DNA of 49,912 nucleotides, taken from a virus. The position numbers and the translations under genes are program-made. The notes beneath the pieces are model-generated. The model did not search any database. It was given only the letters and a program-made list of their open reading frames with translations, and was not told the DNA's origin. Positions 3,118 to 49,310 of the stretch are shown here, one piece after another. Location of the stretch: positions 1 to 49,912 of IMG/VR virus record IMGVR_UViG_3300048031_000487. One strand, written 5' to 3'. Position 1 is the first letter of the stretch. Every line of letters begins with the position of its first letter.

Positions 3118-3492
3118 CTACTCCAGGTAGAGGAAGTCGTCCAGTTCTGGCTCGTCACCGTCAAACACCAGCATATCAGCACGCTCCCCAACCCGAAGGG
3201 GCTCGGGCCACGTTGCGGTATCCACCACCTCGTAAGAGATGTACTTGCCGCCAAGACCATCCTCAACCCAGCCGTCCTTGGACACCTTGACCAGTGCGTA
3301 CTCCCTGCCACCGTAGGAGTAAGGCATACGGAACACGTCGCCTCTCTTGGGGGTGTACTCGTGAATTGAAACCTTGCGTCCTGCCTTCTTCAGTCCAGCC
3401 AGAATCGCCTTCCGCTCAGGAGAGCCGACAGGCATGGTGCTCGCCAAGCGAATCAGCGAACGGCGGTCAGAGGCGGTCAGGGTACGGGACAT
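3118..3492 (-). CDS. Small protein with N-terminal LIRLAS module
   Basis: The ATG at 3492 is preceded by a good GGAG site, giving 124 residues. Residues 4-40 carry the recurring module LIRLASTMPVGSPERKAIL, also found in the protein starting at 11667 and four times in the one starting at 40659. The rest (YTPKRGDVFRMPYSYGGREY onward) is a small beta-rich domain with an acidic C-terminus (DEPELDDFLYLE). I do not recognise this domain. It lies between an FmdB-type gene and the tail sheath and is followed by a terminator, so a late or virion role is likely. The module looks like a shared tag rather than an enzymatic part, which is inference. Confidence 0.85.
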   Translation of the reverse strand: MSRTLTASDRRSLIRLASTMPVGSPERKAILAGLKKAGRKVSIHEYTPKRGDVFRMPYSYGGREYALVKVSKDGWVEDGLGGKYISYEVVDTATWPEPLRVGERADMLVFDGDEPELDDFLYLE

Positions 3493-6862: not shown

Positions 6863-9800
6863 TTACTCCTGATCGCCAAGATGAGAGGCGTAGGGTGAGA
6901 GGGACCGCTCAAGCATCTTCCGGCTCACATCATGGAGGAGGGAACGCTCGCGCTTGGTGCCCTCCCAAGCCTCGCCAAGACGCTCGCCCTGAGCCTGAAT
7001 CACGACCTCATTAAAAAGGGTGTCATCCATCTTCTGCATGATGCCTCGGATTTTGTCCAAAGTCAGATCAGCGTCCACGTCTGCGGTCGGTGTGGTGTAC
7101 ACCGTGTCCAAGGTGAATTCGTTGACTGACTCATTCTGGCCTGCTCGCCATGCACGGGCTGACCGCTGCTTCATGGTTTCGTTCGACCATGTGTCCCGAT
7201 CCAGATGAATGACGTTGGAAAAGGACTGAAGGTTCTGGCCCGTGGCATAAGTGCTGGTCAGCACCAAAGAGTCAATGGTGGGGTCATTCTGCACCAGCCG
7301 CAAGACGATCACCTTCCAATCGCTCTTCTTCGCCAGAGCAAACCCCGTGATCTCGATGTTTGCGTTCTTCTTCACGGACACCCGACCTCCCGTGGTTTCC
7401 AAGACGTAACCCTTGCCATACGGCTGAGGGCGGTTCGGATCGGGATACCGTCGGGGGGTGTAGCGGACCTCATCCCCGACCACCGGGGAAACCCGGATCT
7501 GATCAGCCAGCCCGAGAGCAACCCCCTTTGCGGGAATATCTTGCAACTCCCCATAAGTGTCCGCTGCCATCCCAGGTGAATCCGTGAACAGGAGGGTGCG
7601 ACCAGGAACACGGCTCAGGATCCTCTTGGCCTCTTTGATCTTCGGATTTGGTAAACCCGGAAGCACCTGATTGGGAGTGTCGCTCAGTTGCGTGAGACGC
7701 GCCAGTAATGGTCTCAAGGTGACCTTCGCACGGTCCACCGCGAGAGCATACGCCTTCTCACGGTCGCCACTGACGACACGTTCGCGCAAGTTTCTCTTCA
7801 CCACTTCGTCCAAAGCAACGGCGACCTCTCCCATGGTCTGCTTGTACATTGCCTCCACCTGTGGGTCCATGTTGACCGCGATAGGTGACACCTTGTTCAA
7901 AGGGGGGAGTTTCCGGCCCTCCTCATCGAGAACGTCTCGCTTATCCGCGAAGAAGAGGTTCTGCTTGACCCAGGTGTTGAAGTCACGGGTAGTTGCGACA
8001 TCGGGGGCTCCCGACCACTGCCGGAAGGGAACGACCTCCTTCCCCTCTGCACGCTGGGTGGTGGCCCACAAGTCGTATCGTGGACGGCTCCGATCCACCC
8101 GCTTGATCCCAACCACACGACCACCAACCTTCTCTGCGTATCTCTTGAGGAAGACTCGGAGATCCTTTCTGCCCTCCCGCGTGTTCAGGTCAATCCCATT
8201 CGCAAGGCTGCTCAAGGTGTAGACCTCCGCAGGGGAGCGCACCATCGGGGAAGCGGTCAAAAAGATCTTCCGCTTCGCCTTACACTTCGTGACTGCCTTG
8301 TACGCCTTCGCACGAGGGTTCTTGAGCGTTTCATGGGCCTCATCAAAGAAAATCGCAGCGTAGTCGTCGGCAAAAGTCGGATCCGAGGGCGGACGAGTCT
8401 TGGTCCCAATGACCCTGCGGCTGAACTTGGTATAAGACTCCACATCCACGAGGGCATCCAACTCTTGAGCCGTCTCCTTTCCCTTAATGAACTTGCGGAT
8501 CTCTTTCCTGATGTTTCCCGCCAGGGATCCCTTGCACACGAACAAGAACCGACCATTGCCCTCACTCATTAGGGACTCATTGCGGCGAAGGTTCTGCATG
8601 GTGGCGATAGCAGTGCCCGTCTTACCCACGCCCGTATCCAGAGCACAGATGCCCTTGTTGCCATTTGCGTCCAGCCATGCCACTGCCTGAGCCTGCTGAC
8701 GGCGAAGAGAAGTCCGAAGACCCAACCGCTCCGAGGAGTACCGGACCAGATTGGCATCCTCAGTGGCACGCTGAGCCTTAGCCAACTTGTCGAAGTATGC
8801 CTGGAGTACCTTGGAGGCAGTGTTCGACAGAGCCAATGCACCAATCCCATCGCGGACGGAATCAAAGTCCTTGGGCTCCATAAGGAAAGCCGTCTTCCGG
8901 GATCCCGGCACCTTCTTCATTGAAGGAATCAACGAGGAGAGGCTATCCAGAGCATCACGGATGTACTGCGCGTCCGTGTTGTTCTTCTTGGCTGATACCG
9001 TGATCAGCAGTTTTCCTTCTGGGGTCACCGTGATGTATGGCTCAGTCACCGGGTTAACGATGAAATTCCCTTGCTCGTCGTACCCCTCACGACGGTCCAA
9101 CTCGCCCGTGGCAGGATTGTAGTACGTCTGACTTCCTTCAATCAAACGGCCAGCCGCGTTGATCAGGTCATCCACAAAGAAGCCCTTGAAGCGTCCCGTG
9201 GTGATGACTTGCCGACCCCGGAAGTTCTTGACGGGGTAGATCTTCGTCAGTGCTGTGGACTTGTTGGGGTCATCGGAGAGTGAGACAAAAGCATCTGGCT
9301 TCGGGCGGACTCCAAACTGTGACTCAAAATACTCCAGGGGCATCTTCCGGACCTGATCCAGATCGATGTAGGAATACTTCTGCGACCCTCTGCCACGCTT
9401 CCGCACGAACGCATTGATCTTGCCCAAACGGTTAATCGCTGCATTTTGCTTTTTGAGATCAGCAGAGAACTGAGACATGTCTTGAACACTCCCGTCCTCC
9501 GCGTAGGTGGAAACCACCCCAGCAGGCAACGACCGTAGGACATCGCGATCACTGAGATTCACCAGAACCTCGTCGCGAGTCATCTCAGTCACTTGCTCAC
9601 GCCACTCACGCACCCCTTCTGCATTGACCACACGACTTCGACGGATCACGGGAACCATGTCGGGAATCAACTGAGGGTCCACGCCGACCATGACGGTACG
9701 ACCACGAATGAACGCCTTGGCGGGAATCAGACCCTCCCGAGTGATACGAAGAGAGATGCGCTGATTGATCACAGCCCGCTGCTGATCCGACTTCATCATG

Positions 9801-10282
9801 TGCTGATAGAGCGTGGGGTCATCCCTACGGATCCGCTCGACCTTTTGCTCTTTGGGGGAAGCATTTCGAAGAGCAACCCATCGAACGCCATTCCGGCTGG
9901 GGCGGATACGGGGGGAGTAGAATAGATCCCTCTCCGCAGCAGCAACCGTCCGAATCATATCGGAGTAATTCTCCGCGATACGATTCCAGAGCATGTTGGA
10001 GGCGGAACCCCGGAGGACCAAATTCTGAAGGGCGCTATCCACGAGGGGAGCCTTCGCGGCCAATGCAATCACCGAAAGTTCATTCTCTGCGATGGACTCC
10101 ATGTGACGCACGGCATTGCGGAAACGCCGAAGCGCATCATCGGGCAGGGCACCACCATCAAGAGTCTCCGCCAACTGGAGGTACAGATCAACGAAGTCGT
10201 TGACAAACGTATTGCCGCGACCGAAGTTCTGAAGGTACTTCCGATAAGCGCGATCAGACATCGCAGGAATCAAATCAGCCAT
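6863..10282 (-). CDS. SNF2/superfamily 2 helicase with long unknown N-terminal region
   Basis: The ATG at 10282 has AGGAG seven bases upstream; a TTG two codons earlier is in frame but less likely. The 1139-residue protein has helicase motifs in its second half: motif I ALDTGVGKTGTAIA (~547), motif II FFDEAHETLKN (~644), motif III LTASP (~665) and motif VI QRSARAWRAGQ (~1039). These are SNF2-like, implying an ATP-driven dsDNA translocase or remodeller. A small beta insert beginning VVGDEVRYTPRRYPD sits between the helicase halves. The first ~540 residues match nothing I know. The gene lies among late genes after a Dps-like protein and overlaps it by 8 bases, so it may be packaged in the virion rather than act in replication. 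Confidence 0.8.
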   Translation of the reverse strand: MADLIPAMSDRAYRKYLQNFGRGNTFVNDFVDLYLQLAETLDGGALPDDALRRFRNAVRHMESIAENELSVIALAAKAPLVDSALQNLVLRGSASNMLWNRIAENYSDMIRTVAAAERDLFYSPRIRPSRNGVRWVALRNASPKEQKVERIRRDDPTLYQHMMKSDQQRAVINQRISLRITREGLIPAKAFIRGRTVMVGVDPQLIPDMVPVIRRSRVVNAEGVREWREQVTEMTRDEVLVNLSDRDVLRSLPAGVVSTYAEDGSVQDMSQFSADLKKQNAAINRLGKINAFVRKRGRGSQKYSYIDLDQVRKMPLEYFESQFGVRPKPDAFVSLSDDPNKSTALTKIYPVKNFRGRQVITTGRFKGFFVDDLINAAGRLIEGSQTYYNPATGELDRREGYDEQGNFIVNPVTEPYITVTPEGKLLITVSAKKNNTDAQYIRDALDSLSSLIPSMKKVPGSRKTAFLMEPKDFDSVRDGIGALALSNTASKVLQAYFDKLAKAQRATEDANLVRYSSERLGLRTSLRRQQAQAVAWLDANGNKGICALDTGVGKTGTAIATMQNLRRNESLMSEGNGRFLFVCKGSLAGNIRKEIRKFIKGKETAQELDALVDVESYTKFSRRVIGTKTRPPSDPTFADDYAAIFFDEAHETLKNPRAKAYKAVTKCKAKRKIFLTASPMVRSPAEVYTLSSLANGIDLNTREGRKDLRVFLKRYAEKVGGRVVGIKRVDRSRPRYDLWATTQRAEGKEVVPFRQWSGAPDVATTRDFNTWVKQNLFFADKRDVLDEEGRKLPPLNKVSPIAVNMDPQVEAMYKQTMGEVAVALDEVVKRNLRERVVSGDREKAYALAVDRAKVTLRPLLARLTQLSDTPNQVLPGLPNPKIKEAKRILSRVPGRTLLFTDSPGMAADTYGELQDIPAKGVALGLADQIRVSPVVGDEVRYTPRRYPDPNRPQPYGKGYVLETTGGRVSVKKNANIEITGFALAKKSDWKVIVLRLVQNDPTIDSLVLTSTYATGQNLQSFSNVIHLDRDTWSNETMKQRSARAWRAGQNESVNEFTLDTVYTTPTADVDADLTLDKIRGIMQKMDDTLFNEVVIQAQGERLGEAWEGTKRERSLLHDVSRKMLERSLSPYASHLGDQE

Positions 10283-11108
10283 TATCAATCTCCTGTAGCC
10301 ATAAAGCCATGCGTGACCGATTCACTCTCGCAGCGCGATCAGCATCCCAATCTTCGGAATCTATGACAAGCCTGTTCAACGTGCTGACGGATTTGCCCCC
10401 AGGCTCCGATGCAATCTCCGTCGGGGTGGGTGGGGATTCCTCTGCCTCTGTGACAGCCTGAGCAACGGAGATATCGAGTTCCGCTGCTGCTGCGGCAGCA
10501 ACCTCGGGGCTGTTGCTGATGGCCCCGGTTTCCGCGAACTCCAGCACTTCCTTCTTCTCAGGGTTGTCGAAGAAATAGCCCTCGGCGGTCGGTGCGCCAG
10601 ATGCCTGCTTCTGCCCCGGAACCGGAGTCAACGCCTGCTGGAGCAGGTACTCGTTCTCCTCGTGGGCGTTTGCCGTAGCCATGATCCAGTCGTCCAGACC
10701 AAGGGTCATGGCGTTGACCTGCTTGATCCCCTCGTAGGCACGCTTGAGCGCCTGCTGGAGTTCGACCTCTGACTGCAAGCCCCGCTTGTGGTGGCAGTCG
10801 ATCTGCGACCACCGCATCACGTACCCGGCGATGTGCTTGATCTGGTGGTCGAGGCCAACGACCTCACGACCGAGGTAGCCGACCAACTTCTCGGCCAACT
10901 CGTCTACCTGCTTCTGCACCGACTCGTAGAGGCGGGCGAACAGGAGGTGGTTGCCGTAGAAGGAACCACCGATGACCTGCCAGTGGCTCGTCTGGTACGA
11001 GAGGTAGGAAGCCCGCAGACACGCCAACACGTCACACAGGCGTTGCCGTACCACTTCCCGTTGCATGGGGGTGGCGTTCATATACGCCTGTTTGTCGCGT
11101 TGGCTCAT
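10275..11108 (-). CDS. Dps/ferritin-like protein with C-terminal extension
   Basis: Residues 20-170 resemble the Dps four-helix bundle. The intersubunit ferroxidase residues line up: H42 (SHWQV), H54 (GNHLL), D69 and E73 (QVDELAEKL). Dps proteins oxidise iron and protect or compact DNA. The ~110-residue C-terminal extension is Ala/Glu/Pro-rich and looks disordered, unlike the short tails of typical Dps (about 160-190 residues in total). The ATG at 11108 follows the previous stop by one base (TGAGATG) with AGGGG upstream. Its position between two virion-like genes suggests it protects or organises DNA in the particle, or counters host oxidative killing. Both are inferences. Confidence 0.7.
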   Translation of the reverse strand: MSQRDKQAYMNATPMQREVVRQRLCDVLACLRASYLSYQTSHWQVIGGSFYGNHLLFARLYESVQKQVDELAEKLVGYLGREVVGLDHQIKHIAGYVMRWSQIDCHHKRGLQSEVELQQALKRAYEGIKQVNAMTLGLDDWIMATANAHEENEYLLQQALTPVPGQKQASGAPTAEGYFFDNPEKKEVLEFAETGAISNSPEVAAAAAAELDISVAQAVTEAEESPPTPTEIASEPGGKSVSTLNRLVIDSEDWDADRAARVNRSRMALWLQEIDNG

Positions 11109-11109
11109 C

Positions 11110-11667
11110 TCAACCCCTAATCCGAGGAGGTCTGCCGAACTCCTGCTTGAAGTCATCCATAGCACTCTCCAAGGCGGGAAGAATAGAGTCCTCAATCTCT
11201 TGTTGCACAGCACCCTCGTAGCCGACGTCTGCCCACCCCTTGTCAATCATCTGACTCAGATCGTGCTCGGCTTCCTCGATAGCGGTTTCCAAACCGTAGA
11301 AACCGCTGTCTGTCAGTTCGTCGTAGAAGTCCTTGTAGTCAGACTGAAGGATCAGTCGGTTGATATCCCCGATGCCGTCCCGCATCCGACCCAGAGCCTT
11401 TTCAAAGGCTCCGAGTTGGTCGTAAGCCTTACTCAAATCATTGAGATAGAACTTCCCTGCTGCCTTATCCCATTCGCGCACACCATCCGCGATCCAGTTT
11501 TTGAGCAACTCGTAGGTTTCCTTATTCACGGCAGTGCGGTCACCAAGTGGGTGACCAGACGTTTTGCTCAACCCCACGAGTACAGCACGACGTTCGTCTG
11601 ATCCTACGGGCATGGCCGAAGCCAACCGAATGAGGGCGCTACGGTCTTGTTTGCTGATCTTGATCAT
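11110..11667 (-). CDS. Protein with N-terminal LIRLAS module and helical body
   Basis: The 185-residue protein begins MIKISKQDRSALIRLASAMP and continues VGSDERRAVLVGLSK, the recurring module. The rest is helical and acidic with repeated aromatic/charged segments (KFYLNDLSKAYDQLGAFEKA; SDYKDFYDELTDSGFYGLET). I do not recognise the fold. GAGGA lies nine to ten bases before the ATG. That ATG overlaps by 4 bases the second, downstream TGA of the frame of gene 11757-13046, so translation of that extended frame would couple directly to this gene. The module suggests it is targeted to the same place as the proteins starting at 3492 and 40659, possibly the capsid interior. Confidence 0.85.
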   Translation of the reverse strand: MIKISKQDRSALIRLASAMPVGSDERRAVLVGLSKTSGHPLGDRTAVNKETYELLKNWIADGVREWDKAAGKFYLNDLSKAYDQLGAFEKALGRMRDGIGDINRLILQSDYKDFYDELTDSGFYGLETAIEEAEHDLSQMIDKGWADVGYEGAVQQEIEDSILPALESAMDDFKQEFGRPPRIRG

Positions 11668-11756: not shown

Positions 11757-13046
11757 TCAGGCACGGCGGTTGACGCTGCCGACTTCCCACTCCAGCCAAC
11801 CGTCCACCGAGTCAGGCACGAACGCCTTGCGGAGCATCTGGTCGGAGGTAGAAGCGGTGCGGAAGGACTTGATCACGGTGCCCATGCCACCGTGGCCGAG
11901 GGATACGCCGGACTTGCGCTTGAACAGCGTGTACTTCGCCCGACCACGCTTGACGGGGTTCCCGTCCTCGCCCACTGGGTAGAGGGTCTTGGAGTACACG
12001 TCGTACTTCTTGGAGTAAGTGGTGCGCCCAACGACGAACTCCCTCTCGCTCCCTGTAGAGCCGTAGCCCGTGGAGAGATCCATGTAGACGCGGTCGCCGG
12101 GACGAAGCGCGTCGTACTGCTGGTCAGTGATGCTGACGGAAGCACTCTTGTCCCACGGGTACTTCTCGTCCCCTGCCCAAGTCAGGCGAGCACGGCGAGG
12201 AGTCATCCGGGCTGCGTTGGCCTTCTGGCGGTCAGCGTCGGCCTCCCCCGCAGCAAACGCCTTCTCCAAGGTAGCAAAGGCTCCTACACGCTCACGGTCA
12301 ATAGTGAGGGTGTACCACCCTCTTTTGCCTGTGATCATCGCCATCTTGCGGTCGTCTCGGTACAACCCCCATGTGCCATCACCGAGGCGAGACCAATCGC
12401 TACGGTGCTTCTTCCCACCGTCACCGATGCCGGACCTTCGGGTATCACTACCCTCCTTCATGCGAGCGGCGTCGGCCTTCTGGCGGTCAGCATCGGCCTG
12501 TGCCTCGTTGGCTTCGGCCTCGGCCTCATACTTCTCAGCCTGCTGCTCGGACGCGGCACGCATACCCAGAGCACGGAGTCTTTTCTCTGCGGGGCGATAC
12601 CACACAGCATCCATGACCTGAAGACCCTCGTGACCGCGTTGACGGAGAAGCCGAACTGTCCGATCTGCTTCCGCAACATCATCGTAAATGATGTCGTCAA
12701 ACCACTTGCCACCTTTCTTGGTGTCCACGATCACGAACATTTGACCGGGGCGTACTTCCGCTGCCTTCATGTGGGAGGCACCACGACCACGACGAACCAA
12801 AACGAGGTGCTCAGGCTTATGCCGAATGTTTCTGGTTTTGTGCTCCCAGTCTACCACGGGGAAACCCGCAGCCCAGCCACGATCCACGAGCCGCACGACC
12901 TTTCCGTACAGAGTCTCATCTGAGATCATCCCGGTCTTTCGGATCCAATCATCGGAATACCGCACCGTGTCGCCAACCTGGAAAGCGGTCGTTGCGGCAC
13001 GGGAGGGAGGCGAGGGTACGAGTCGTTCGATGGGGAGTGTAGTCAT
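11757..13046 (-). CDS. Hypothetical late protein with internal repeats (429 aa)
   Basis: The ATG at 13046 has TGGAG upstream. Residues 20-90 form a beta-rich segment beginning FQVGDTVRYSDDWIRKTG, of the 'VGDxVRY' small-barrel type; a similar short segment is inserted in the SNF2-type protein. A helical, Ala/Glu-rich stretch holds two copies of ADADRQKA(D/N)AARM (about residues 185 and 270), also repeated at DNA level. The C-terminal part ends DGWLEWEVGSVNRRA before a UGA. The frame remains open for 30 codons beyond that stop (separate entry). No enzyme motif is visible. Its neighbours suggest a virion or late role. Confidence 0.8.
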   Translation of the reverse strand: MTTLPIERLVPSPPSRAATTAFQVGDTVRYSDDWIRKTGMISDETLYGKVVRLVDRGWAAGFPVVDWEHKTRNIRHKPEHLVLVRRGRGASHMKAAEVRPGQMFVIVDTKKGGKWFDDIIYDDVAEADRTVRLLRQRGHEGLQVMDAVWYRPAEKRLRALGMRAASEQQAEKYEAEAEANEAQADADRQKADAARMKEGSDTRRSGIGDGGKKHRSDWSRLGDGTWGLYRDDRKMAMITGKRGWYTLTIDRERVGAFATLEKAFAAGEADADRQKANAARMTPRRARLTWAGDEKYPWDKSASVSITDQQYDALRPGDRVYMDLSTGYGSTGSEREFVVGRTTYSKKYDVYSKTLYPVGEDGNPVKRGRAKYTLFKRKSGVSLGHGGMGTVIKSFRTASTSDQMLRKAFVPDSVDGWLEWEVGSVNRRA

Positions 13047-37440: not shown

Positions 37441-40400
37441 CTACGCCTGCTTCAAATCTCCAGCGGCCATGCGGAGGATGGTCTTGCGCTCGTCTGATCC
37501 CACAGGGAGTGCAGCAGCGAGGCGAACCAGCGCGGCCTTCTTGCTGCTGTGATGGGGCACGATGGCGGACACAGCCTCGGCCAACCACGCATCCCGCGAG
37601 GGACGCTGGATGCGAAGACCCTTCGCAGGAAGACCCGGACCCTCCACAAACTGACCGTGAATGGCGTACTTGTCATTCCCGATCATGATGGCGTTGCTTG
37701 AGACGGAACCCTTCGCCTTGACACCCTTCTTCCCCAATGCGGCGACGAGAGCATCACGCAAGTCTTCGACCTCGCCTCGCTCGGGCTTGTACGCGGCCTT
37801 CTTGCTCTTGAGGAAGTCGGGCTTCGGCTCGTTGGTCTTGCCGTCGCCGTCCTTGTCGTTGCCCTTCGGGTTCGGGTTGTCCTCGGAGGTGAACTGGTGC
37901 TTCTTGAGAGCGTCGGGCACGTCGCCCTTGCCTGCCGTCTTGGAGGCAACAATATGGGCGATGTCTTCGTAGTGCTTCTTCTCGGGCTTGTAGTGCTTCA
38001 TAATCGCAACGGTGTCGGCGTAGGACACGGGTGTGAACACGACGCTGTAGGTCTTCCAACCCTTGGTCTTCCGCACGGAGAACTTGCCGCGAACCTCGTT
38101 CTTGTCGAGCGACTTCACGAAGTCCTTCGCCTTGTCCTTGCTGGAGAAGATGAGGTGTCGAGCACGCTCCGCAGCCTTCTTCTTCTCAAATTTCTTCGCG
38201 GTCTTGGCCTTGTTTCCGATGGCTTCGCCAGCCATCTTCTCGTGGGGAGAGGTCCAGTTGACCAAGCCCTTATTCAAGGCTTGAGCGGTCGCCGGGAGAT
38301 CCTTCTCGTTGATCACGGGCATGTCCGAACGGTCGGGTGCCCACGAAGGCACAGCCTTGCTCACAGCACCGATGTTCTCGGACATCTTCGCGATACCCTC
38401 CTCCACGGAGCCTCCAAGACGGGTCAGCGCCTCCCTCACCTCGTCCGTCGAGAGATCGTAAGCGCCCTTCTCGACCATCTCACGGAGCGCCTTCTTGGTG
38501 TTCGCCGGGGTGTACGCCTTGATGTCGCCGCTGCCGGGGTTCCCCCTGTTCCGTTTGAACATGCCCTTGGTGACGATGTTCAGCACCTTGAGGAGATCGG
38601 CACCCTTCAACTTGGCCTTGTACCCACCCACGGAGACACCGGGACCAGCAGCCGCAATCGAAGCACTCCAGCGATGGTGACCGTCGAGGATGTGGTTGTC
38701 CGCCGAGATGATGGCACCGAGGTCACCACCGGGACCAGACGCAAACGGAGACTTGCCGAGGATCATCTTGAGCGCCATGCCGAGAGTCTTCGGCAACTGC
38801 ATCGTGGTCTGGGAGGGCTTCAACTTGCCCGCAGATTCGGTAGCCTTGCCCATCGGGATCACATCGTCCCTCAGATCGCCATCATCATGCCCCGACACCA
38901 CAATGTACTCGGCAAGTACCGGGTCCACACCGCTCAGGGTCTTGGCCTTGTTGATGTCCCGCTGGGTGATCTTCATGTCGCGTGCCGTGCGGAGGATGAC
39001 CTTGCGTCCGTCTGATCCCTTGGGGAGAGATGCTGCGAGGCGAACCAGCGCATTACTGGTGTTGGAGAGGTCTCGTTGGGACGCGAGCCGCTTCATCCTC
39101 ATGTAGAAGTCGCTGTAGGTGTCGGGGATGCCGAACTCTCTGGTCATGTCGAAGATACCGTCTTTGCTGACGCCGATATCTTCCAGGTACTCCGTGACGT
39201 CGCTCTTGTGCGGTGAGCGCATCCGAATCTTGACTCCGGGCTTTCGTGGGTCGCCCATGGTGATCACGTAGCGGTCACCCGCCTTGTGAATCACAAACAT
39301 GTGGCGCTCGATCTTCTTCCGTGGGTTCTCACGAGCCTTCTTGTCGGAGGCACCCTCTTCCTTCTTCTTCTCGCAGTTGTCCCGCATCGGACCCTCGGGC
39401 AACTTCTCGCAACCCGCGAGGATTGCTCGACGCTCCTCTGATCCCACGGGAAGGGATGAAGCCAACCGAATCAGAGCACGGCGCTCAAGTGCAGCGCGGC
39501 GTCCTCGGACATCCTCGTGGTAGAGGGAACGGATGCCGGGATCACTGATGTTCGACCCAGGACCAACGCGCTTGCTTCGGGGAGTCTTCTCCAAAGCCAA
39601 CTCCTTCGCAGCCGCGATCAACTTCGGGGAAACCTTGCCCCACAGTTGACCATAGCGACGGGCAGACTGAATCGAAGTACCCGGCGAAGCGTTCTTCTTG
39701 AGCCACTTCACGAAAGCCGACTCGCTCAGTGTAAGGGTGTCTTTGTTTGCCTCACCCTTCCCCGGCTTGAACAAGGGGCTTCCGCTGCTGTCCCAGTAGT
39801 CCACGTCAGCCGCCGCATCGATCAGGAGATCCATCATTGCTTTTTGGGCGGGGGAAGAACTCAGGTTGGCTCTTTGGATGATCTCCCCCAAGTACACGGG
39901 GTCGTTCAGCACAAGAGCAGCGTCTCCAGCACTGACGAACTCTTGAACCTCAGCGAGATCAGGACCGCTGTCAAGGAGGTCACTCTTGGCGCGGGTCAGA
40001 CGCAACCAGTTCTTCGCCACCCCCTTTGTGCGAGCACCCATGGACTTCGCGAGATTTGAAACGGTGTCACCTTGGGACTCAAGGAACTTTCCGGGCTTCT
40101 GCCCGACGAGGACGGGCAGAGAAACGCCCTTCAACATGGGGGTGTCTCTGTTGGGTGCATCAACACCGGGGTACAGAATCGACTGGACCAGATCCTCAGC
40201 GGTGGCCTTGTCCATGCCCTTCACACCAGCAGCCTGAGAAACCATGCGGTTGTAGATGTACGTGGTGCGATCTCGGGGGGAAACCTTGGCCCGAAGAAGA
40301 CCCGCCGCAACCTGCTTGAGCCTCTCGTCTCGGATGAGTGTCTGAAGCACCTTCTCACTGGCAGCGGCAACTGCCTTGTTCCTCTGGTTCTTGGGGAGAT

Positions 40401-40659
40401 TCTGTTCGTAGATGGACTTCAACTCGGACTTGATCTCCTGCTCGTAGACAGGCAAAACGCGGTTCATCGTTGAGAGAGCGGTCGTAGGATCAACCTTCGC
40501 CTTCCCGGCCTCGTAAAGAGCCGCGATTGTGAAGTCGTCCACGGAGGCTTGCTTACGCAGGTGGGCCAGAATCGCACGACGCTCTTCGGAGCCTTTGGGA
40601 AGTGTGGAAGCCAACCGCGTGAGGGATGCGCGATCCGAGGAAGTCAAGAGGCGGGGCAT
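37441..40659 (-). CDS. Multi-module virion-type polyprotein with four LIRLAS modules and a ParB-like motif
   Basis: The ATG at 40659 (AGGAG upstream) gives 1072 residues. Four copies of the LIRLAS module lie at residues ~7-33, ~392-414, ~536-555 and ~1040-1063; the last is 9 residues from the C-terminus. They separate unlike segments: a helical part (40-380), a basic Lys/Glu linker with a small MFVIHKAGDRYVITMGD domain, a ParB/sulfiredoxin-like segment (AIISADNHILDGHHRWSASI, ~650-670), then Lys-rich and Pro/Asp-rich linkers (NPNPKGNDKDGDGKTNE). The DGHHRW motif is that of ParB-type CTPase/nuclease domains. The layout looks like several proteins joined by a shared tag. No protease domain is seen within it. 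Its place at the head of the virion block suggests an internal virion protein. Confidence 0.8.
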   Translation of the reverse strand: MPRLLTSSDRASLTRLASTLPKGSEERRAILAHLRKQASVDDFTIAALYEAGKAKVDPTTALSTMNRVLPVYEQEIKSELKSIYEQNLPKNQRNKAVAAASEKVLQTLIRDERLKQVAAGLLRAKVSPRDRTTYIYNRMVSQAAGVKGMDKATAEDLVQSILYPGVDAPNRDTPMLKGVSLPVLVGQKPGKFLESQGDTVSNLAKSMGARTKGVAKNWLRLTRAKSDLLDSGPDLAEVQEFVSAGDAALVLNDPVYLGEIIQRANLSSSPAQKAMMDLLIDAAADVDYWDSSGSPLFKPGKGEANKDTLTLSESAFVKWLKKNASPGTSIQSARRYGQLWGKVSPKLIAAAKELALEKTPRSKRVGPGSNISDPGIRSLYHEDVRGRRAALERRALIRLASSLPVGSEERRAILAGCEKLPEGPMRDNCEKKKEEGASDKKARENPRKKIERHMFVIHKAGDRYVITMGDPRKPGVKIRMRSPHKSDVTEYLEDIGVSKDGIFDMTREFGIPDTYSDFYMRMKRLASQRDLSNTSNALVRLAASLPKGSDGRKVILRTARDMKITQRDINKAKTLSGVDPVLAEYIVVSGHDDGDLRDDVIPMGKATESAGKLKPSQTTMQLPKTLGMALKMILGKSPFASGPGGDLGAIISADNHILDGHHRWSASIAAAGPGVSVGGYKAKLKGADLLKVLNIVTKGMFKRNRGNPGSGDIKAYTPANTKKALREMVEKGAYDLSTDEVREALTRLGGSVEEGIAKMSENIGAVSKAVPSWAPDRSDMPVINEKDLPATAQALNKGLVNWTSPHEKMAGEAIGNKAKTAKKFEKKKAAERARHLIFSSKDKAKDFVKSLDKNEVRGKFSVRKTKGWKTYSVVFTPVSYADTVAIMKHYKPEKKHYEDIAHIVASKTAGKGDVPDALKKHQFTSEDNPNPKGNDKDGDGKTNEPKPDFLKSKKAAYKPERGEVEDLRDALVAALGKKGVKAKGSVSSNAIMIGNDKYAIHGQFVEGPGLPAKGLRIQRPSRDAWLAEAVSAIVPHHSSKKAALVRLAAALPVGSDERKTILRMAAGDLKQA

Positions 40660-48192: not shown

Positions 48193-49299
48193 TCAGAAGA
48201 TCGACCGTAGTGCAGCCGTGTGCTCTGGCCCGAGACTCCCGAAGGCGTCCGAGGCCACGGCTTCGCAGAAGTGTTCCTCCGCGTTCTTAGCCGAGTACGC
48301 GGTCGGAAACCGCAACTCGTCACCCATGGTCTCTCTGCGGAACTTGAGGAGCCGGTACTTGCTGATCTCGGATTCACTTCCGTCAGGCCGCGCAAAGGTG
48401 TACGCCGATTCCTTGATCTCCTTGATCACGGGACGCCAGCCTCGGGGGGCACCCTTGATCCGAACAGGAAGCGCCTCGCCCACCTCGGGGGGTGGGATTT
48501 CCACCTTCTTGTAGGAGGTCTTGCGGTGATGCTTTTCCCACAACGCCTTCGCCTCACGGGACATGAACTTCCGCCAGTACCGGTGAGTGAGTTCGTGTAC
48601 AAGTGCGAAGGATTCATCAAACCCCCACTTCGCGTTAGCCACACGGCAATACACAACGTCCTCTTGGATGTTGTACCACGCAGCCGTCCGGGCCTTGTTT
48701 AGTTGCCCTGCCAAGTAAATGTCCCCGTAGAGAACCTTCCGCAGACCGGGCACGTCCTTGTCGGCCTTCACCTTGTTGGTGGCTGTCACCAGCATCTTCT
48801 TGAAGGCTTCCAGTTTCGCGCCAGAGGCTCCGGTGGTGTTGTGGACCGTGAACGGGCCGAGTCGGAACAGCGCGTCTGTGCCTTCTTGTTTCTCGGGCCA
48901 CGTCTTTGCCGCTGCTATGGTCAGCAGAATCCGCTTCTCGTTGGTTTTCCACCACTTGTAGACATTCTTCGGCATCTTCCGGCTTCGTGCGTAGAGCCGG
49001 TAAGCCATCTCCAGCCCTTTGGCTTTACGGGCAGGAATCTCACGGGTTCCTAAGATGCCGTCGGCGATCTTGTAGCCCTTATCCATGAGTTCAACCCATG
49101 GGAGATTGGCCCGTTGCCGCACGACGTAGTTGTCACCGGAGATACCTCGTGCCAATCCGTCCTCAACAGCCTTCTTGAAGGCGGCATGCGCCCTTTCAAA
49201 CGGCACGATGTTCTGAGCAATGTCTTGCTCAGAACCCGCTGCGAGCACATTACGTGCGACTATATGCCGTTGGGCTACGCGGAAGGCAGAGGGTCGCAT
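48193..49299 (-). CDS. HExxH zinc metallopeptidase-like protein
   Basis: The ATG at 49299 has AAGGAG upstream (368 residues). The core FALVHELTHRYW (H235-E236-x-x-H239) is a gluzincin/zincin active site, and a candidate third ligand lies in NAEEHFCEAVASDAF near residue 345. The preceding part is helical and basic (RKAKGLEMAYRLYARSRKMP). The N-terminus MRPSAFRVAQRHIVARN looks like an amphipathic basic segment and may be a targeting tag. There is no signal peptide, so it acts in the host cytoplasm or inside the particle. It may process virion proteins, but this is only a possibility. Confidence 0.75.
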   Translation of the reverse strand: MRPSAFRVAQRHIVARNVLAAGSEQDIAQNIVPFERAHAAFKKAVEDGLARGISGDNYVVRQRANLPWVELMDKGYKIADGILGTREIPARKAKGLEMAYRLYARSRKMPKNVYKWWKTNEKRILLTIAAAKTWPEKQEGTDALFRLGPFTVHNTTGASGAKLEAFKKMLVTATNKVKADKDVPGLRKVLYGDIYLAGQLNKARTAAWYNIQEDVVYCRVANAKWGFDESFALVHELTHRYWRKFMSREAKALWEKHHRKTSYKKVEIPPPEVGEALPVRIKGAPRGWRPVIKEIKESAYTFARPDGSESEISKYRLLKFRRETMGDELRFPTAYSAKNAEEHFCEAVASDAFGSLGPEHTAALRSIF

Positions 49300-49310
49300 C
49301 AAAGTCTCCT

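Follow-up and report, generated by a model that had tools for sequence, protein, structure and literature searches.

A conserved peptide module carried by otherwise unrelated proteins of large phages is probably a removable prohead-targeting tag, that is, a capsid-targeting propeptide that would be cut off by the head protease, its cargo then being delivered with the DNA. Beneath this reading lie computed facts: the copies of the module and their positions, the enrichment and direction of a K/R-x-A site, the swapping of tags on homologous cargo and the co-occurrence with one family of MCP and protease. Docking, cleavage, packaging and delivery of the tagged proteins are steps that we infer from precedents in phages T4, SPN3US and P1.

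The sequence under study, hereafter the window, is a 49,912-nt fragment of a phage genome (IMG/VR record IMGVR_UViG_3300048031_000487, one strand). A six-frame profile scan of the window recovered exactly six module copies, all in plausible genes on the minus strand and scoring 77–80, and no seventh; the runner-up stretch scored 29 and the maximum in three shuffled windows was 33. This bore out the first-pass annotation, which had placed one copy each in the proteins that begin at 3492 and 11667, and four in the one that begins at 40659. Its module length of ~25 residues proved too short: because TASDRSA ahead of LIRLAS and AGLKK behind it are also conserved, the conserved unit spans ~37 residues, with the consensus M.(K/R)(T/S)LTASDRSALIRLASTLPxGSxERKAILAGLKK.

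Four of the copies lie in a 1072-aa multi-domain protein (37441..40659, minus strand, as are the following features), the translation of which agrees with the earlier description. Copy 1 forms its N-terminus (40546..40659, residues ~6–35; profile match E 1e-22) and is followed by the listed joint site KQA↓S (nt 40546–40554; the arrow marks the predicted cut). Copies 2 (39397..39495, residues 392–417; E 7e-20) and 3 (38971..39066, residues 536–560; E 9e-18) are internal and are preceded by RRA↓A (nt 39493–39501) and RLA↓S (nt 39082–39090), respectively. Copy 4 is C-terminal (37450..37554, residues 1039–1065; E 3e-19); its site, KKA↓A (nt 37534–37542), falls at the module start, and the copy was counted as lacking a separate upstream site in the strict upstream [KR].A count. 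The other two copies are N-terminal on small open reading frames: copy 5 (3379..3492; E 2e-22) on a 124-aa protein (3118..3492), with KKA↓G after the module (nt 3382–3390), and copy 6 (11554..11667; E 6e-23) on a 185-aa protein (11110..11667), where the junction reads KTSG and the closest K/R-x-A is RTA at 11530–11538.

The first unit of the 1072-aa protein has family members in several other module carriers (blastp; hhalign 96%, E 1e-9), residues ~569–806 match ParB-like-containing proteins of contigs G004 and G011 (blastp), and there is a weak match to phrog_2859. The idea that the first unit is a sigma factor was dropped, having no Pfam support, a model of medium confidence (pLDDT 68) and no convincing PDB or BFVD match. 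Elsewhere in the window, the large gene at 1–2973, which adjoins the 3492 gene, may encode a tail sheath, judging by its N-terminal sequence. A Ferritin/Dps-like protein (10275–11120; Pfam Ferritin E 3e-5, just below the cut-off) is encoded next to an SNF2-type helicase gene (6863–10282). A probable related multi-domain protein without the module (11757..13046, minus strand) shares LPIER, AEANEAQADADRQKADAARMKEG and KAFVPDSVDGWLEW, by eye, with G006_131, G016_045 and G011_272. These four are mosaic proteins in which the segments LPIE(R/T)A, AEANEAQADADRQKADAARMKEG, KHQFTSEDNPNPKGNDKDGDGKTNE and KAFVPDSVDGWLEW recur and in which a DKDGDGKTNE part looks like a calcium-binding loop; K/R-x-A sites are enriched in the latter three.

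The copies had also been described as similar in their DNA and, on that ground, as moving as a unit or being under strong constraint. The stretch CGGTTGGCTTC is indeed common to three of the six window copies, and codon identity at shared residues clearly exceeded expectation for copies 3 and 4 (12/15 versus 4.9) and for the 11667 copy against copy 2 (9/15 versus 4.4), but most other pairs stayed near the codon-usage expectation. With a clear excess in two pairs only, some copies look recently duplicated, yet constraint acts mainly at the protein level; recent DNA duplication is thereby ruled out as the main source of the similarity, and movement as a DNA unit gains little from the test.

An AlphaFold2 model predicts that the module folds as a two-helix hairpin (helices 6–18 and 24–36, high confidence) with a flexible joint behind it, where model confidence is low. 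No PDB sequence matched the module up to E 1, nor did any Pfam or PHROG profile match it in the window proteins, save a sub-threshold Pfam Med12 hit (E 0.013) touching copy 3.

In IMG/VR, a pattern scan returned 64 loci with the module. Whole-record searches gave 25 copies in G011 (a 297-kb contig, of which G012 is apparently a near-copy), 12 in G004 (288 kb) and 1–20 in the others. To place the copies within proteins, six related contigs were taken whole, genes were called by a simple script and the module profile was iterated. Across all loci, the distinct copies number 92: about 60 N-terminal (starting within 14 residues of the N-terminus), 10 C-terminal (ending no more than 12 residues before the C-terminus) and the others internal, at the joints of long multi-domain proteins. 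Most copies sit on single small proteins. As the first-pass annotation had held for the flanking domains, protein comparison within the set found the tagged bodies mostly unrelated to each other or to anything else in it, so the module resembles a T4-type capsid targeting sequence (CTS) in being a short terminal peptide on several unrelated proteins of one phage. When the first 42 residues of all proteins were clustered without bias, with pairs of related bodies removed, the module came out as the biggest group in most contigs (15, 6, 6 and 4 members), compared with at most 3 members for random internal windows. Recognizable cargo includes ParB-like segments, a YdcK-like beta-solenoid and a protein with a weak match to WGR. 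Of 98 replication proteins, not one was tagged (P 0.023). One tagged protein, G011_282 (L105:5824–7254), has a domain with similarity to fusellovirus VP2 (PF25632, E 1e-7, above the cut-off).

In the collections searched, the module is restricted to phages. Queried with the consensus, tblastn found no match in 50,697 phage records, cultivated phages included. Among 84,980 bacterial and archaeal genomes (one per species), scanned with a tighter module alignment that diverged host copies may escape, it occurred in two contigs only, both from one actinomycetotal MAG. Both contigs hold phage-like genes, and one combines the module with two other tag types within 17 kb; as far as tested, the module is therefore a phage feature. 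The first-pass annotation had set its virion reading against a module found mostly in host proteins or in non-virion proteins of known fold, and the genome scan led to nothing but these two phage-like contigs. In the open-access literature searched, we found no paper on 'LIRLAS' or 'LLPLLK' in a phage context and no account of tags of this kind.

On the evidence of their head-protein sequences, the carriers form a clade of large phages related to the cultivated Tunturiibacter phage Tunturi_5, to the 485-kb metagenomic phage LR745208 and to Bacillus phage G; the G011 MCP is 84% identical to that of LR745208, 50% to that of Tunturi_5 and 41% to that of phage G. Gene order in G011 runs terminase, portal (phrog_16240), a tagged protein encoded directly 3' of the portal gene, further genes, head maturation protease, an acidic protein that we read as the scaffold from its gene position and composition, and MCP (phrog_2522). 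The G010 homologue of the protease matches phrog_18299. Protease and MCP profiles matched 14 of the 19 tagged contigs and did not match 201phi2-1; the five tagged contigs without a match include fragments, among them the 49.9-kb window itself, in which neither gene was found. The module is absent from Tunturi_5 and LR745208, which have the same MCP family, and first-42-residue clustering found no recurrent N-terminal tag in Tunturi_5. The head protease genes of G009, G019 and G024 carry an in-frame intein at the same place (L267:734–3406, L268:599–3295 and L269:540–3272) that matches Intein_splicing and Hint and, in two of the three genes, LAGLIDADG as well; an intein within a prohead protease could delay protease activity. 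In the C-terminal part of the protease alignment, the module-bearing clade conserves LVRVASS, which resembles the module core and is possibly a self-cleavage site.

The joints next to the modules share a short motif with the head proteins. Within 16 aa on the cargo side, [KR].A was present at 37 of 55 N-terminal modules against a 15% background in the same proteins, the other 18 having none in the 16-aa joint, and 8 of 10 C-terminal modules had it ahead of the module, which is likewise the cargo side (background 15%); the P values for these joints are nominal binomial ones and too small, since the copies are related and not fully independent. By sequence counts, this motif is enriched in scaffold and protease. 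The scaffold is dotted with 'EAKGKKA', 'SKKKAS' and 'KKA', and [KR].A[SA] occurred 35 times in four scaffolds (7.1 expected), 17 times in four proteases (4.6 expected) and 34 times in other head-cassette proteins (9.2 expected). There was no such enrichment in terminases (1 versus 2.9), portals (2 versus 2.0), 98 replication proteins (58 versus 56.9), ten tail-like proteins (10 versus 12.5) or the MCP.

Composition does not explain the enrichment, because the mirror motif was far rarer than [KR].A[SAG] in the head cassette (scaffold 39 versus 6, protease 22 versus 4, other head-cassette proteins 40 versus 11); in replication and tail proteins the two were equally common. The [KR].A pattern also occurs in the ejection protein and scaffold of Tunturi_5, and five aligned head proteases share an invariant K.A.A close to the N-terminus. 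As the motif is enriched and directional in head proteins and K.A.A is invariant in the proteases, the head protease would appear to prefer K/R at P3 and A at P1. Close to its N-terminus the MCP has a putative KLA↓A site, which phage G lacks. Inside the tagged bodies, a general [KR].A enrichment vanished under the mirror control and only [KR]TA stood (27 versus 4).

The module is one of several such tags. LR745208 uses a tag of its own, M.TLRSKLIRLAHENPALRPHLLPLLKEA, which occurs 11 times, and the recurrent tag LRSKLIRLAHENPALRPHLLPLLKEA stands at the N-terminus or at joints in many proteins of huge phages (LR745208.1 L150 and L153–L163; loci L165–L230). This LLPLL tag ("LLPLLKEA"), found in this analysis and not a named family, occurred at 66 IMG/VR loci, including contigs that carry the module, and 13 of its 17 N-terminal occurrences had [KR].A behind them; phage G, which has the same MCP family, gave no match to the LLPLL profile, the sole tag profile applied to it. 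Like the module, the LLPLL tag of LR745208 is N-terminal, begins LIRLA and ends KEA/KTA, and its phages have the same MCP and protease families; the second half, however, differs in sequence, and profile comparison aligned 15 columns (probability 59%, E 9e-5). PSPxRVASR[YWF], a very short N-terminal pattern, begins about 13 unrelated G011 proteins, and the window gene at 48193..49302 (minus strand), with MMRPSAFRVAQRH, may by its N-terminal pattern carry this second class of tag. LRxILAxEGL, often followed by KxA[GS], recurs at N-termini in G004 (8 or more proteins), G010, G011 and G014.

The strongest result of the analysis is that homologous cargo bears the module in one phage and the LLPLLKEA or LRxILAxEGL tag in another. 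The beta-solenoid protein is tagged with the module in L108, L043, L058, L071 and L232 and with the LLPLL tag in L204, with homology beginning a few residues from the K/R-x-A site. The WGR-like protein has the module in G004 and the LLPLL tag in L227, and in G010 lies behind an ILxxEGL-type tag and an extra domain; its junctions read 'VKTA↓HRPVLVTPK' and 'RKVA↓HRPHFVTPK'. ParB-like cargo is joined to either the module or the LLPLL tag. Of 78 pairs with unlike upstream parts, 32 had homology that started at [KR].A on both sides, compared with 4% at control positions; the 78 pairs represent 13 cargo clusters, 7 of which show such a start. These natural swaps are suggestive of a tag that alone may carry a foreign protein into the head.

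Known head-targeting peptides offer the nearest parallels. The T4 CTS is a short N-terminal peptide on IPI–III and Alt, proposed to mediate entry into the prohead core and removed by gp21 (PMC7411985). The module is likewise a short peptide common to several unrelated proteins, and by analogy may likewise serve head entry and be cut by the protease; however, the T4 CTS is ~10–20 aa long and N-terminal, whereas the module is a predicted hairpin of ~37 aa that is also C-terminal and internal and reaches 25 copies per genome. T4 cleavage sites end in E, whereas the site predicted here is K/R-x-A, and the module joints have no recurrent x-x-E. In the SPN3US/phiKZ group, gp245 cuts at AXE, a motif reported as T4-like (PMC7411985); head proteins have N-terminal propeptides of 20–254 residues with several cuts each, the protease has a C-terminal propeptide, and Ser is preferred at P1' (PMC10052503, PMC7411985). 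Those propeptides are long or protein-specific, in contrast to one portable unit on many proteins, and their motif is AXE rather than the predicted K/R-x-A; nor was a chimallin homologue found in eight module-carrier records. In P1, the N-terminal residues of DarB direct a head-packaged defence protein and can take a reporter into the capsid (PMC9024508), a targeting sequence described for one protein, unlike the module with its family of interchangeable tags. Our data thus point to, without proving, a module that works like capsid-targeting propeptides but lacks the E at P1 of T4-type sites. The capsid-targeting or processing signal proposed in the first-pass annotation gains support in direction from the terminal positions, the cargo-side site, the scaffold and protease enrichment, the swaps and the MCP/protease co-occurrence; its packaging and cleavage components we infer.

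We propose that the tag would form a short hairpin of two helices and dock its cargo into the assembling prohead core, where the head maturation protease would cleave the flexible joint that follows it (GL.K.A↓). It would probably also cut at RLA↓S and ER(K/R)A↓I, both conserved within the module itself, which would let the protease chop up the module in the way described for SPN3US propeptides (PMC10052503). The cargo would be freed in the head and delivered to the host with the DNA. Long multi-module proteins may be polyproteins or cargo with serial tags, and these same sites would be where they are cut. Against this proposal stand the third of N-terminal joints without [KR].A, the enrichment of [KR]TA alone inside tagged bodies, the MCP and portal without enrichment, the missing KLA↓A of phage G, and the absence of the module from Tunturi_5 and LR745208 despite their shared MCP family.

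Each rival explanation leaves a main fact unexplained. The hairpin could be a docking domain that binds a partner (scaffold remnant, portal, another virion protein or a cytoplasmic hub protein) and stays uncleaved on the mature protein, [KR].A being a linker feature. A compact, well-predicted fold and the third of N-terminal joints without [KR].A are what one would then expect, but the motif keeps to the cargo side in both orientations, is directional and common to scaffold and protease, and often marks the point where swapped-cargo homology starts; we consider such a domain unlikely. It is distinctly improbable that modules merely part the units of polyproteins cut by a phage protease in the infected cell, with no role in packaging: internal copies in multi-copy proteins do have [KR].A around them, but the majority of copies are on single small proteins, which have no units to part, and the site class is that of head-cassette proteins.

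Very unlikely, too, is an ejection signal or a tag that directs proteins to some place in the cell outside the head, for example to a phage nucleus, a vesicle, a membrane or a site of replication. Such a role would suit a short helical tag that looks amphipathic and recurs on many unrelated proteins, but replication proteins are untagged and the joints have head-type protease sites; import into a phage nucleus was rejected when a search with one query, 201phi2-1 gp105, found its positive control and no homologue in eight carrier records, although a very diverged chimallin could escape it. The excess of shared codons in some window copies would also suit a selfish in-frame peptide element spreading as DNA, like the palindromic elements of Rickettsia. 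We give this hardly any credence: RNA and DNA at the module show no unusual folding or hairpin (z −0.7 to +1.7), positions are termini and joints instead of arbitrary ones, conservation is mostly at the protein level and different tags replace the module on the same cargo.

Beyond the removable prohead-targeting tag itself, the module may possibly belong to a portable address code, a broader idea that we put forward tentatively. Several unrelated or diverged tags (the module, LLPLL, RVASRY and ILAxEGL) would share a K/R-x-A release site, and cargo units would recombine freely. Each phage would sort dozens of proteins into its head for delivery to the host, and a different tag could stand for a different address in the particle.

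If the prohead-targeting reading is true, the new N-termini predicted after K/R-x-A offer it a cheap and sharp test, and a defined peptide would be available with which to load proteins into the heads of phages. For uncultivated huge phages, virion cargo would then become predictable from sequence by tag and K/R-x-A site. Such cargo consists mostly of proteins without a known family, and the prediction would point to proteins delivered at the start of infection.
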